DNA of 64,000 nt from Sinorhizobium mexicanum (GTDB lineage: Bacteria > Pseudomonadota > Alphaproteobacteria > Rhizobiales > Rhizobiaceae), in NCBI RefSeq assembly GCF_013488225.1, contig NZ_CP041240.1:391677-455676 (forward strand). Reading direction: 5' to 3'. A program made the translations under genes and the position numbers. Within the stretch, counting starts at the first letter, position 1. Each line of letters opens with the position of its first letter. The notes under the pieces are model-generated. The model did no database searches, was not told the origin of the DNA, and worked only from the letters and a program-made list of their open reading frames with translations. Below are positions 2,408-12,696 of this stretch, piece by piece.

Positions 2408-2456
2408 AAATTCGTAAAATCGATTGTTTGGATAGCACACATCCACGTTATGGATG
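2408..2456 (-). promoter_or_regulatory. nod box for nodABC
   Basis: Read on the minus strand this contains both conserved nod-box halves: an ATCCATAACGTGGATG-type 5' part and ATCCAAACAATCGATTTTAC in the 3' part. NodD proteins bind nod boxes and activate transcription with plant flavonoids. It points at nodA, and its distal edge abuts the start of a nodD remnant, the classical nodD/nodA divergent layout. Confidence 0.92.
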
Positions 2457-2720
2457 AGTGAAGGGCCTTGATCTTAATCTTCCGGTCGCGCTGGACGCTC
2501 TGACGGGCAAGCTTAACCTCACCGCGGCGGCGCGCAGCATCAACCGGCGATCAGCGCGGGCGTCGCGGTTATGCACCTGTTTTCAATATGTTGACGATGC
2601 GTGCCGTCCCCAGATCGAATACCAAAGATCCTACACCGCCGCGTATAGGATCGCGCTACCAGCCGTCGTGGATATGGTAACGTTGTTCCTCTCAAGACGC
2701 CGCTCAATCCGGCGTCCAAT
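2451..2720 (+). pseudogene. nodD remnant (N-terminal and middle fragments)
   Basis: Starting near GTG 2458, the frame reads KGLDLNLPVALDAL and then LTAAARSIN, nearly identical to the start of both intact NodD proteins here. The recognition-helix segment LSQPAM is missing and the frame is lost afterwards. A later stretch, VVDMVTLFLSRR, aligns with the NodD segment SDYVTLVFFERI. Most of the ligand-binding domain is gone. It occupies the normal nodD position divergent from nodA and ends just before the second nod box, so it is a decayed nodD and not a gene. Confidence 0.85.
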
Positions 2721-2765
2721 GTTTCGAAAGATGACAATTTGCAGAACCCCAAGAATGCCTGTGCG

Positions 2766-2814
2766 CATCCAACATGTGGATGTGTGGCATCCAAACAATC
2801 GATTTTACCGATGT
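2766..2814 (+). promoter_or_regulatory. nod box for nodFE
   Basis: The plus strand carries a near-consensus nod box: CATCCAACATGTGGATG at the 5' end and ATCCAAACAATCGATTTTAC in the 3' half. The next gene in this direction is nodF, about 340 bp downstream. Spacing and orientation fit NodD-dependent expression of nodFE. Confidence 0.93.
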
Positions 2815-3157
2815 TGCGGAAAGCTGCATGGATGAAAGCGTCAATTCTCGTGCAACAACATTTGCACCGTCACGACTAATGTTAACTGCTGACACTTACG
2901 CCAGGACATGCAACCGCTAACACAAGACAACACAGTATTCAGTGAGGTGGGGCATCCCTTCATACGCCGGACCTCACGCGAGACTCTCTGTGGATTGCGT
3001 GCGTCCACCTGGCCTTGGCTGGCCACTAAAGCAAAATGAAGACTGATCAATAGTTGCTATTGAACAAGACAGAGTTGTCCGCAACGACGGCAGACATAGA
3101 GCTAGTCCGCTCAGCTTAGTTGCGGAGGAATTGAACGATTGAATTTGGGTGAGGGCA
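2815..3157. other. Untranslated leader between nod box and nodF
   Basis: About 340 bp without a recognisable gene. Only short frames occur, for example 43 codons from 2909, without family resemblance. It is probably the 5' leader of the nodFE transcript, perhaps containing eroded sequence from the rearrangement that placed a nod box here. Confidence 0.5.
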
Positions 3158-3409
3158 ATGGCCGATCAACTGGCAACCGAGATCATCGAAAAGATTAAAG
3201 CTCATGCGGAGACCGACAAGGAAGTTACTATTGACTCCGATCTCGGAGCTCTTGAAATCCATTCGCTGGAACTCACCGAAATCGTGTTCGATCTCGAGGT
3301 CGCTTACGGCATCGAGATCGAGATGAACACTTCAGAGGCTTGGAGCAACCTCAAGAACGTCGGCGACCTCATCGAGGCGACACGCGCCTTGATTGCAGCT
3401 AAGGATTAG
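3158..3409 (+). CDS. nodF: NodF, nodulation-specific acyl carrier protein
   Basis: NodF carries the growing, often polyunsaturated, acyl chain elongated by NodE for attachment to Nod factor. The 83-residue acidic protein has the phosphopantetheine attachment serine at S36 in the HSLELTEIVFDLE context, matching the DSL-type site of acyl carrier proteins. I use the ATG at 3158, with GAGGG just upstream; an in-frame GTG three codons earlier is possible. nodE follows 9 bp after its stop, and the nodFE nod box lies upstream. It is slightly shorter than the usual 92-93 residues. Confidence 0.93.
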   Translation: MADQLATEIIEKIKAHAETDKEVTIDSDLGALEIHSLELTEIVFDLEVAYGIEIEMNTSEAWSNLKNVGDLIEATRALIAAKD

Positions 3410-3418
3410 CATTTCGTC

Positions 3419-10501: not shown

Positions 10502-10599
10502 ATCCACGGCTTTGATGCTGATTACCGATGCACCGCGACAAAAAGGCGCCCGAGGGCAGACACGCAAGAAATGGAGTAAATGAGTAGAGGCGATTTCAA

Positions 10600-10891
10600 T
10601 CAATCGTTGTGCACCACCGTTCCCCTGAAACGCCAAGCCGGGCCGCACAACTTCCCTCAGCAAGGCCTGAACGATCGCCTCCGCCGTGCCGCTCGAGCGC
10701 GGCAGTTTCGTAAGCATCTTGTCCCACCACCGCAGACAAGCTCGTTGGCCCTAAGCCGAATGTAGCCGACACCACCAACAAGCATCGCCATCAGCGCCAG
10801 TGTAGCTGCCACGCGTGAGATGGGCACGCCGCGAGCGGCGCCCTTTTATCTGCGACCGCTCTCGCGGATCATGCTGTCAGACAATGACGGA
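10600..10891 (-). other. Gene-free stretch with DUF2867-tail remnant
   Basis: Between the lacI-type gene and nodD there is no intact gene. The minus strand at about 10690-10600 encodes AIVQALLREVVRPGLAF, matching the end of the DUF2867 protein at 13.5 kb (AIVPALLTGVKRPGHGV), with nucleotide similarity continuing past the stop. Further upstream a hydrophobic stretch (ATLALMAMLVGGVGYIRLR) reads like a lone transmembrane helix. These look like fossils. Confidence 0.5.
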
Positions 10892-11905
10892 TCACGCCCG
10901 CGAACTCGCCGCGGCGTTCGTCTTCGCGGGGCGACCCGGACAAACATCCCTTGGCGATCCAGGCTCGATGGGGGACTCGGCCGCGGCAAGCGGCGAAACC
11001 ATACTGGACGCCTCCTGTACTAACATCTCGCGCATCCACAGGCTTGCCGGATCACTATTGTGAAGCGCGGGCCATTGAACGGCCTCGGTGAACGGAAGGT
11101 GTTGTGGCAGCGGGAGCTCGACGATACGCAGCGGCATTGTTTTTGCAAAATGCTGCGCCAGCCGTAAGGGCATGGTTCCTATGCGCTCGGTCCCCACCAG
11201 CATGGGCGGAATCATGCTGTAGCCCTGTACCACGACGTCGATACGTCTCTTGAGACCGTGCTCGACCAAATACCGTTCCTCGATGCCTAGCCTCAGGCTA
11301 TCCCCGAATCTGACCACAACGTGCCCCATCGACATGTATTTCTCGAATGCAAGTGGTTCCGACAGCTGGTCGTTCGTGCGACAACCGACGCACACGTGTA
11401 CATCGTCGAACAATTTCGTTCGAGGACGAGCGTTCGACATGAAGATTTCCGGCAGAATCAGTAGATCGACGTCGCCGCGCCGAAGAAGGTCCTCGTTGTC
11501 GTCGGTGGGGGGAAGAAATTCGAAGCTGACGGCGGGCGCTTCAAGCGCCGCACGCTCCACGATCCTTTCGAAAAACACGAATGTGACGTAATCGGAAAGG
11601 ATGATCCTGAAACGCCGATCCGACTGAGCCGGGTTAAACGGCTCCCAGGAAATGATCGAGAGCTGAATGCGCAGCAGAGCCTCGCGTGCCGCCGGCGCGA
11701 GCCGTTCCGCACGCGGCGTGGGGATAAATTCGCGGCCAGCCATCGTAAACAGCTCATCCCGGAAATAGGTGCGTAACCGGGCGACGGCCGCGCTCATCGC
11801 TGGCTGACTGAGATTGATGCTGCGGGCCGCCGCCGTGAGGTTACGCTCGGTCATGAGGGCGTCGAGCACAACCAGGAGATTTAGATCGAGGCCCTTGAAC
11901 CGCAT
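10892..11905 (-). CDS. nodD: NodD, LysR-family activator of nod genes (copy B)
   Basis: A second complete NodD, 337 residues. The N-terminal helix-turn-helix is nearly identical to copy A, and the co-inducer domain matches it with scattered substitutions. The C-terminus runs about 25 residues past the usual NodD end, finishing in an Ala/Arg-rich tail. That is probably read-through into foreign sequence after loss of the original stop. It lies next to a degenerate nod box and downstream of a same-strand nodA. Differences in the sensor domain could give a different flavonoid range. Confidence 0.95.
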   Translation of the reverse strand: MRFKGLDLNLLVVLDALMTERNLTAAARSINLSQPAMSAAVARLRTYFRDELFTMAGREFIPTPRAERLAPAAREALLRIQLSIISWEPFNPAQSDRRFRIILSDYVTFVFFERIVERAALEAPAVSFEFLPPTDDNEDLLRRGDVDLLILPEIFMSNARPRTKLFDDVHVCVGCRTNDQLSEPLAFEKYMSMGHVVVRFGDSLRLGIEERYLVEHGLKRRIDVVVQGYSMIPPMLVGTERIGTMPLRLAQHFAKTMPLRIVELPLPQHLPFTEAVQWPALHNSDPASLWMREMLVQEASSMVSPLAAAESPIEPGSPRDVCPGRPAKTNAAASSRA

Positions 11906-11911
11906 GTCTCT

Positions 11912-12109
11912 TTATCCACCGTGTGGATGTATGCCAGCCGAACCATCGATCGGCTGCTTCACTGGAAGAACATACTTGTCAGAACTCACTGCCGGAATTC
12001 GCCGACCGGTGCGCTGTCGGTCCCGCCGACCGCCGGCGTTGAACGGGCGTGGCTGCGTAAGATCGCCAATAAGCGTCTGCGCTTCGGACCAGCAATAGAG
12101 ATAGCTCAT
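11912..12109 (-). CDS. 65-residue ORF translationally coupled to nodA copy 2
   Basis: The nodA copy 2 stop overlaps an ATG in an ATGA, exactly as nodA-nodB does in copy 1. The frame that follows encodes 65 residues (start MSYLYCWSEAQTLIG) with none of the NodB catalytic motifs. It runs into the degenerate nod box before stopping. It is either a nodB whose body was replaced after the first few codons or a chance frame. No family is recognised. Confidence 0.3.
   Translation of the reverse strand: MSYLYCWSEAQTLIGDLTQPRPFNAGGRRDRQRTGRRIPAVSSDKYVLPVKQPIDGSAGIHPHGG
11913..11960 (+). promoter_or_regulatory. Degenerate nod box next to nodD copy B
   Basis: The 5' half is intact (ATCCACCGTGTGGATG) but the 3' half has eroded: AGCCGAACCATCGATCGG stands where ATCNAAACAATCRATTTT is expected. 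It sits at the standard distance from the divergent nodD, pointing at the plus strand. In that direction there is no nod gene in sense orientation, only the 3' end of nodA copy 2. Confidence 0.65.
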
Positions 12110-12696
12110 AGCTCTGGTCCATTCCGGTCAATCAGCCTGGCGGCGGGCCAGTCGGAGATCGGCCGTCCAACAGGCAGGACGATGACAAGTGGATCCTCGA
12201 CGCGCGTGGGCGGCAGGTCGGTACGCGCGTGTGGCAGCGTGGAGCGTACGGTGATCCCGGACATCACAGTCACCAGACCGTGTCGGCCGAACCTCTCAAC
12301 GTGCTTCCGCATCTCGGGCCGAACGGTACCGAAAGCGAATGGAACTTGAAACTCCTGCAGCGTTGGAAGCATGACATGGATCGAATGGGCGATCCCGAGT
12401 CCCTCAAGATCCGGACGCACCCCATACAAGCCTAGTTCAGCCACCAGCAGGTCGACTCCGTCAACCTTGATGAAACGGCGCAGTAAGCCCATGTGGGCCG
12501 CTACACCACTCGAGTCGTAGGCGATTGCACGAAGCTCAGGTCTTGCTCCGGCCCAGCTTTGACTGCCTTCGAACGGCTTTGCATTGAAGGCCCCGGTCGG
12601 TCCATAGGTCTTCCGAAAGAAGTCTGTGAGTTCAACGTGGTCGGACAGTTGCAACTCATTTTCCCAGCACAATTTCCACCGCACGTCAGCGCGCAT
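12106..12696 (-). CDS. nodA: NodA, Nod factor N-acyltransferase (copy 2)
   Basis: A second complete NodA of 196 residues, with conserved segments WKLCWENELQLSDH, FFRKTYGPTGAFNAKP, GARPELRAIAYDS and VAELGLYGVRPDLEG and the family ending IDRNGPEL. A GAGG site stands 8-9 bp before the ATG at 12696. It differs from copy 1 mainly in the C-terminal third. No nod box is visible in the roughly 400 bp upstream, and no nodB follows. It is oriented toward nodD copy B instead of away from it. It could supply an acyltransferase with another acyl preference if transcribed. Confidence 0.95.
   Translation of the reverse strand: MRADVRWKLCWENELQLSDHVELTDFFRKTYGPTGAFNAKPFEGSQSWAGARPELRAIAYDSSGVAAHMGLLRRFIKVDGVDLLVAELGLYGVRPDLEGLGIAHSIHVMLPTLQEFQVPFAFGTVRPEMRKHVERFGRHGLVTVMSGITVRSTLPHARTDLPPTRVEDPLVIVLPVGRPISDWPAARLIDRNGPEL

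Follow-up and report, generated by a model that had tools for sequence, protein, structure and literature searches.

A probable mosaic of three nod modules that differ in ancestry and age on a Sinorhizobium plasmid with multiple nodA and nodD genes

Introduction

The acyl chain is joined to the Nod factor by NodA, and the kind of chain is described as able to contribute to host range (PMC3557214, in the passages cited here). Corresponding passages on the symbiotic plasmid (pSym) of Rhizobium tropici CIAT 899 list the genes nodA1-nodA3 and nodD1-nodD5 (PMC3557214, PMC4624370) and give the order of nodA3 and nodD3 (PMC4624370); those on Sinorhizobium americanum CFNEI73 and CCGM7 likewise report three nodA and five nodD genes (PMC5011921). 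A third NodA of 141 amino acids is reported from strain 4H41 (PMC4571125), and Bradyrhizobium elkanii nodD2 has upstream of it an incomplete nod box to which NodD1 is proposed to bind (PMC5596368). Three nodA with five nodD genes, the nodA3-nodD3 pair, the 141-residue NodA and a partial nod box are thus already in print in the portions of these papers cited. Here we describe a nod region in a 64,000-nucleotide stretch of DNA, hereafter the window (G000:C3:391677-455676), that holds three sites with nodA, nod box and nodD sequence: module 1 (nodABC, a nodD stub and nodFE), module 2 (a nodA2 relic and nodD2) and module 3 (nodA3 and nodD3). Targeted literature searches, which did not extend to the nodB vestige reported below, found no publication on repeated loss of nodA2 or on half nod boxes of the kind seen here.

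The window is the terminal part of a 455,676-base (455.7-kb) contig in a 7.14-Mb genome of four contigs, and the contig appears to be a Sinorhizobium symbiotic plasmid. Among named plasmids, S. terangae CB3126 and S. chiapasense ITTG S70 have the ones closest to the window, followed by S. americanum, S. fredii NXT3 and GR64. In S. americanum CFNEI73 and S. fredii NXT3, the order nodABC-nodFE-nodA2-nodD2-luciferase-like monooxygenase-hisC-lacI is collinear with the window; however, nodA2 is intact there and nodD3-nodA3 is not at this site, and the nodA3 of CFNEI73 is at another place, separated from nodD by an OnfD-like AraC gene. As reported for S. americanum, our plasmid has five full nodD genes, all intact: nodD2 and nodD3 in the window, and three more at about 65, 298 and 355 kb of the contig (loci L112, L114 and L115). 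The first-pass annotation had counted a working set with two nodD genes, which holds within the window but not for the plasmid.

The resemblance to CIAT 899 extends to three nodA lineages, five nodD genes, a nodA3 just before a co-directional nodD3, and y4wEF nearby. CIAT 899 carries nodA2-hsnT-nodFE under one nod box, and the window has an hsnT fragment behind nodA2. The window differs in that its nodA2 is dead, its nodD1 is reduced to a stub and its nodFE lies beside module 1; moreover, none of the plasmid's five nodD genes is a close counterpart of CIAT 899 nodD2 (59-64% identity). For module 1 there is a further likeness in R. johnstonii (leguminosarum) 3841, where nodABC, nodD, nodFE and two nod boxes have the same order and orientation, but where nodD is intact at the position now occupied by the stub.

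Results

The segment is probably a mosaic of three nod modules, differing in ancestry and age, on a symbiotic plasmid with multiple nodA and nodD genes. We built a NodA tree from 56 of 111 hits, after dropping own-genome duplicates and unnamed rows at least 96% identical to a kept row. All nodA copies fall in one superclade (35 rows, 99/92*), within which nodA1 lies inside a Sinorhizobium clade (95/94*) and nodA3 in a clade of 17 rows that includes R. tropici nodA3, R. gallicum and R. etli Mim1 (98/98*); the nearest neighbours of nodA3 in the tree are other Sinorhizobium nodA3 copies (8 rows, 90/73, unstarred). The approximately unbiased (AU) test rejects the sinorhizobial nodA copies as a single clade (p = 4.7e-5) and also rejects each pairing of nodA1 with nodA3 (p = 0.005), nodA1 with nodA2 (p = 0.036) and nodA2 with nodA3 (p = 0.021), for groups that were set by locus after the tree had been seen and that left out the BR816 copies. 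NodD trees comprised 48 of 81 hits under the same rule at 95%, or 50 rows once CIAT 899 nodD4 and nodD5 were added. They place nodD3 in the clade of CIAT 899 nodD3 (99/97*), which also holds CIAT 899 nodD5; window nodD2 is therefore not the orthologue of nodD5, as position might have suggested. The L115 nodD joins R. etli CFN42 nodD1 (100/99*).

Three sites do carry nodD, nod box and nodA sequence, each with a loss, as the first-pass annotation had stated; module 3, in which nodA3 and nodD3 are co-directional, is however not a decayed divergent module. The ratio of nonsynonymous to synonymous substitution (dN/dS) is 0.055-0.32 against relatives for nodA1, nodA3, nodD2 and nodD3, and these low values indicate that the four genes are kept.

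Module 1 begins with the 5' part of nodC (1..888, minus strand; 99.3% to S. chiapasense NodC), which leaves the window and is complete in the adjoining locus, where nodC, nodS, nodU, nodI and nodJ are all full length (98-99.7%). nodB follows at 902..1561 (minus; protein identity 94.5% to S. terangae CB3126 and 95.9% to S. chiapasense), and then an intact nodA1 at 1558..2148 (minus; dN/dS 0.11-0.23 against four relatives), which has the NodA domain PF02474 in a Pfam run on ten chosen window proteins. We scored nod boxes as matches over 41 positions of a nod-box consensus, for which the best of 12 first-order random windows reached 28. The box of nodABCSUIJ (2408..2456, minus) scores 39/41 and lies 259 nt before the nodA1 ATG, within the 200-280 nt expected of a canonical module. 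The divergent nodD of such a module is absent: a stub of about 120 nt (2461..2582, plus) corresponds to roughly nt 10-143 of the gene and resembles eight functional nodD genes at 75-79% (E between 3e-27 and 7e-11), which bears out the earlier claim that module 1 had lost its nodD. Beyond it, a second full nod box (2766..2814, plus; 37/41), missing from the earlier list, faces nodF (acyl carrier protein; 3158..3409, plus; 50% to CIAT 899 NodF) and nodE (ketoacyl synthase; 3419..4630, plus; 65% to CIAT 899 NodE).

None of seven relatives aligned with the window has a full nodD at this site, and the loss of nodD1 is therefore old. S. terangae and S. chiapasense retain the stub (E 2e-24 and 7e-30); in CFNEI73, NXT3, GR64, BR816 and 6-70, nodD similarity there is at or near chance (best E 0.008-0.36), and the spacers still align. 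The stub is too short for placement in the tree. Module 1 would thus be a classical nodABC-nodD-nodFE arrangement from which nodD was excised between the two nod boxes, and a flavonoid-activated NodD acting in trans (NodD2 or any other of the five) would switch on both nodABCSUIJ and nodFE. A truncated nodD beside a nod box reportedly has a precedent in a Rhizobium species.

Module 2 retains an intact LysR-type nodD2 (5773..6699, plus; dN/dS 0.10-0.32 against four relatives) and a divergent nod box (5715..5763, minus; 36/41) that has no intact target gene. Downstream of the box lie a nodA2 relic that has lost its 5' end and carries several frameshifts (5087..5502, minus; 86.8% to intact S. americanum nodA2), a nodB scrap of codons ~46-64 (5023..5089, minus; 77.9% over 68 nt, E 4e-9; tblastn E 8e-4) and an hsnT fragment (4631..4856, minus; 227 nt aligned at 76.7% with the plasmid's own intact hsnT, E 5e-42). 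The box thus stands at the head of what would have been a nodA2-hsnT operon, both of whose genes are now fragments. Module 2 had been said to have lost nodAB; nodA2 is indeed dead, but the dead operon consists of nodA2 and the hsnT fragment, with the nodB scrap between them. It would have been driven by this nod box, and its death would have left the divergent nodD2 and the full box behind.

The same nodA lineage is broken elsewhere. Some nodA match is present in 31 of 33 genomes of the genus. Eight genomes carry the module-2 nodA, which is broken in six (G000, G005, G014, G021, G029 and G032) and intact in two (G002 and G009); by strain, intact nodA2 occurs in S. americanum CFNEI73, in CFNEI156 and in S. 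fredii NXT3. With GR64 added, the broken copies form five groups, and no lesion was found in common between any two of them. 4H41 and GR64 share one frameshift, BR816 lacks the C-terminal part, 6-70 has its own indels, the window and S. chiapasense have lost the 5' end and share further lesions, and S. terangae lacks most of the 5' half without the window's 3' lesions. On this pattern of lesions, nodA2 decay is later than the other losses and apparently parallel across lineages; an inactivation shared by all and leaving no visible break, such as a missense change, may have preceded the separate lesions. That the lesions are sequencing or assembly errors is extremely improbable: 4H41, BR816 and 6-70 are draft genomes, but the frameshift of 4H41 recurs in GR64, a complete plasmid, several lesions are common to the window and S. 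chiapasense, and the 141-residue third NodA reported from 4H41 (PMC4571125, in the passage cited) would be this broken copy. The repeated loss suggests selection against the Nod factors made with nodA2, or a need that disappeared where nodA3 is present.

The module-2 nod box scores 35-37/41 in ten scanned loci, whether or not nodA2 is broken. The neighbouring leader and relic look about equally conserved by eye, so conservation of the box is no proof of function, and we discarded it as a sign of selection. Elsewhere on the plasmid, locus L113 (G000:C3:136500-148500) has a nod box, a broken nodA and an intact hsnT (73% to CIAT 899) at its positions 5492-8215, and a second nod box (32/41), a nodB scrap and a broken hsnT leaving the stretch at 10930-12001. 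Counting module 2, hsnT sequence with a nod box occurs at three places on the plasmid, none of which has an intact nodA.

Module 3 consists of an intact nodA3 (12106..12696, minus; PF02474; dN/dS 0.06-0.25 against five relatives) followed by an intact LysR-type nodD3 with a longer C-terminal end (10892..11905, minus; dN/dS 0.11-0.21 against five relatives). This co-directional pair also occurs in CIAT 899, R. gallicum IE4872, CB3090, S. terangae and S. chiapasense, and the distance from nodA3 to nodD is 200 nt in the window, 113 in CIAT 899, 113 in CB3090 and 173 in IE4872, all within about 200 nt. Both window proteins fall in the respective CIAT 899 clades given above. Immediately behind nodA3, 33 nt (12073..12105, minus) match the 5' end of nodB at 23/33 positions, a value reached by 0 of 500 shuffles and compared with 14-15/33 for six control genes; for eight of 11 nodA3 copies, no more than two of 500 shuffles do as well. 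This vestige indicates that nodA3 came from a nodAB operon, as had been proposed from the sequence alone.

No nod box precedes nodA3. The best upstream site in the window scores 23/41, a value reached by 32 of 300 random sequences, and none of 12 nodA3 copies has a box within 900 nt upstream (their best sites score 21-24/41, as do 14-272 of 300 random sequences or better), in contrast to eight of eight control nodA genes with boxes of 35-41/41 at 201-272 nt. A non-coding block upstream of nodA3 (12868-12934) aligns in nine Sinorhizobium nodA3 copies at varying distance from the gene; a hidden nod box within it was ruled out, as its scored part (12872..12920, minus) does not rise above chance, and no function was found for the block. 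In CFNEI73, GR64 and S. chiapasense plasmid b, nodA3 is followed by truncated nodD traces, an OnfD-like AraC gene (59-60% to CIAT 899 OnfD) and a full nodD. The window's own plasmid likewise has an OnfD-like AraC gene followed by nodD at L112.

At the start of nodD3 lies half a nod box (11913..11961, plus; 29/41), with a perfect first dyad (15/15) and a degenerate second half (14/26). Module 3 had been described as having lost nodB and most of its nod box; the half box and the nodB vestige agree with this, but the box faces the 3' end of nodA3 and in that position could therefore not drive the gene. Module 3 would thus be a nodA3-nodD3 tandem unit in which an old loss took nodB from behind nodA3 and left nodA3 beside a nodD whose nod box is a half at its start codon. 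S. terangae and S. chiapasense have exactly the same 49-nt half box, and R. gallicum IE4872 a similar one. In the alignment with IE4872, 56/62 positions adjoining nodD3 match, compared with 76/138 in the remaining intergenic columns, which include 27 gaps.

nodD genes that lack a full nod box often retain such a half at the start codon. Among 57 distinct nodD upstream regions, the box is full in 32 and half in 17, and eight have neither form; we collapsed identical upstreams into one, left out own-genome duplicates and sequences truncated at a contig end, and included nodD genes regardless of whether they face an operon, and the rows are related rather than independent. Clear half boxes number 14 of 57 (dyad at least 13/15, second half 9-14/26), CIAT 899 nodD4 and nodD5 among them, the other three being weak (12/15) and excluded. 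In shuffles, at least 12 matches were seen in five of 1140 and at least 13 in one of 1140. On the window's own plasmid, half boxes precede nodD3 and the nodD genes of L112 and L114, nodD2 has a full box, and the L115 nodD has neither (11/15).

In all 14 clear cases only 4-11 nt separate the dyad from the start codon, so close that its retention may serve translation of nodD and not binding by NodD. The pattern suggests that the half box by itself acts on nodD as an autoregulatory or translational element. B. elkanii nodD2 also has an incomplete nod box upstream, but in the passage cited that box lies 152 bp upstream of the putative nodD2 promoter (PMC5596368). The joint reading, that nodA2 was repeatedly lost through selection or redundancy and that the half box works on its own at nodD, is in our judgement doubtful as a whole. 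The lost half of the nodD3 box (11930-11961) contains an inverted repeat with a 7-bp stem beside the dyad, and two hairpins are predicted in the nodD3 leader as RNA.

Discussion

Some results weigh against a mosaic of modules with separate histories and roles. The module-2 nodA, represented by the intact S. americanum and NXT3 copies and not by the relic itself, groups with R. tropici nodA2 and R. mayense at 90/86, unstarred. Sister relations between whole nodA lineages pass the AU test (p 0.22-0.46), the clades of nodD2 and nodD3 join as sisters (93/88), and the AU test speaks against a recent nodD2/nodD3 duplication without rejecting it (p = 0.074). The nodB vestige is not significant ungapped in IE4872, CIAT 899 and CB3090 (70, 91 and 160 of 500 shuffles). 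Finally, CIAT 899 NodD3 or NodD5 alone left a nod reporter inactive in a strain otherwise without nodD, according to the passage cited (PMC9629785).

The first-pass annotation had explained the three partly similar modules inside 10 kb by recent whole-module duplication in this plasmid lineage followed by reciprocal loss. The persistence of nodB remains in modules 2 and 3, the 84.7% similarity of nodD2 and nodD3 over 957 columns and the AU result for nodD fit such an event; however, the tree that it had itself named as decisive, once built, groups each nodA copy with a different lineage, the sinorhizobial copies are rejected as one clade, and nodA3 and nodD3 join Rhizobium copies. The losses are not reciprocal either, since that of nodD1 and those of module 3, with its nodA3-nodD3 tandem, are old and shared with other species, and nodA2 decayed later and apparently in parallel. 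Recent duplication is thus rejected for nodA, older duplication is not, and the recent scenario as a whole is very unlikely. The accompanying claim that regulators and targets are now unlinked is borne out.

An old duplication of a nodD-nod box-nodAB(C) unit, in a shared ancestor of the symbiotic plasmids of R. tropici, R. gallicum and Sinorhizobium and followed by differential loss, is an origin that we hold tentatively but take seriously, because sister relations of whole nodA lineages are not rejected. The single superclade, the nodB vestiges of modules 2 and 3 and the presence of y4wFE beside nodD3-nodA3 in CIAT 899 and CB3090, as in the window, agree with it; the nodA and nodD trees nevertheless disagree (nodD2 is sister to the nodD3 clade, and nodA2 groups elsewhere), and the nodABC operons of R. 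gallicum R602 and R. etli Mim1 carry a nodA of the nodA3 type, which indicates that nodA alleles have been exchanged among operons. Separate horizontal acquisition, with modules entering the plasmid singly from different rhizobia, is possible as well, at less than even odds: each nodA has its kin in another lineage, module 3 is missing from this site in CFNEI73, NXT3 and GR64 and has direct repeats at its borders, and further nodA3 genes lie on a second S. chiapasense plasmid. Yet module-3 nodA first joins other Sinorhizobium nodA3 copies in the tree (the unstarred grouping above), and the order y4wFE-nodD3-nodA3, common to the window and CIAT 899, points to long residence, so that S. americanum may have lost module 3 by recombination between the repeats.

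These repeats (10595..10679, like the 3' end of a DUF2867 gene, and 13513..13597, at the 3' end of the intact DUF2867 gene at 13531-14025 on the minus strand) are 75.6% alike over 86 columns and occur as a single copy in CFNEI73, NXT3 and GR64. We rejected module 3 as a mobile-element insertion: no transposase was recognised in the segment's list of open reading frames, and the repeats are pieces resembling the DUF2867 3' end. Either gain by a single crossover in the window lineage or loss in the S. americanum lineage fits this arrangement; we lean towards loss in CFNEI73, NXT3 and GR64, because the gene order is common to the window and CIAT 899, which has nodD5, a small open reading frame, y4wF, y4wE, a group II intron and insertion sequence elements, nodD3 and nodA3.

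Whatever their origin, the modules may differ in expression and product. CIAT 899 nodA3 changed 1.15-fold with apigenin and 3.36-fold with salt, a value not marked for significance in that table (PMC4782375), and 3.59-fold with mannitol, where it is listed as differentially expressed (PMC6436695), in the portions of these papers cited. Lacking a nod box, window nodA3 would not need flavonoids for its expression, in line with what is reported from CIAT 899, and the plasmid would have the same division of labour: a flavonoid-inducible nodA1, a flavonoid-independent nodA3 and regulators in trans. NodA1 and NodA3 may also differ in the acyl chains they transfer.

A by-eye count of decayed modules mixes ages: an old loss of nodD, an old nodA3-nodD3 tandem and a later decay of nodA2. 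A plasmid family in which one nodA lineage has been silenced several times, and others retained, is a natural test of costly versus needed Nod factor variants, and half nod boxes, if functional, would show a regulator keeping its own control once its target is lost.

Between modules 2 and 3 lie a y4wF-like luciferase-type monooxygenase gene (6753..7781, minus; PF00296; 74.6% to CIAT 899 y4wF), a y4wE-like aminotransferase gene annotated as hisC in relatives (8041..9138, minus; PF00155; 75.8% to CIAT 899 y4wE) and a LacI-family regulator gene, its start taken from relatives (9386..10429, minus; PF00356). In CIAT 899, y4wF and y4wE are linked to indole-acetic acid synthesis. The y4wEF-like genes have the LacI-family gene upstream and no nod box of at least 29/41 (window 8041-10429), and in CB3090 a 33/41 nod box precedes the y4wEF homologue. 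S. chiapasense ITTG S70 has four annotated NodA genes over two plasmids, one more than CIAT 899. Beyond module 3, the DUF2867 gene and repC follow (13531-15942), so that the nod region adjoins repC; nodABC likewise lies beside repC in R. gallicum R602 and R. etli Mim1.

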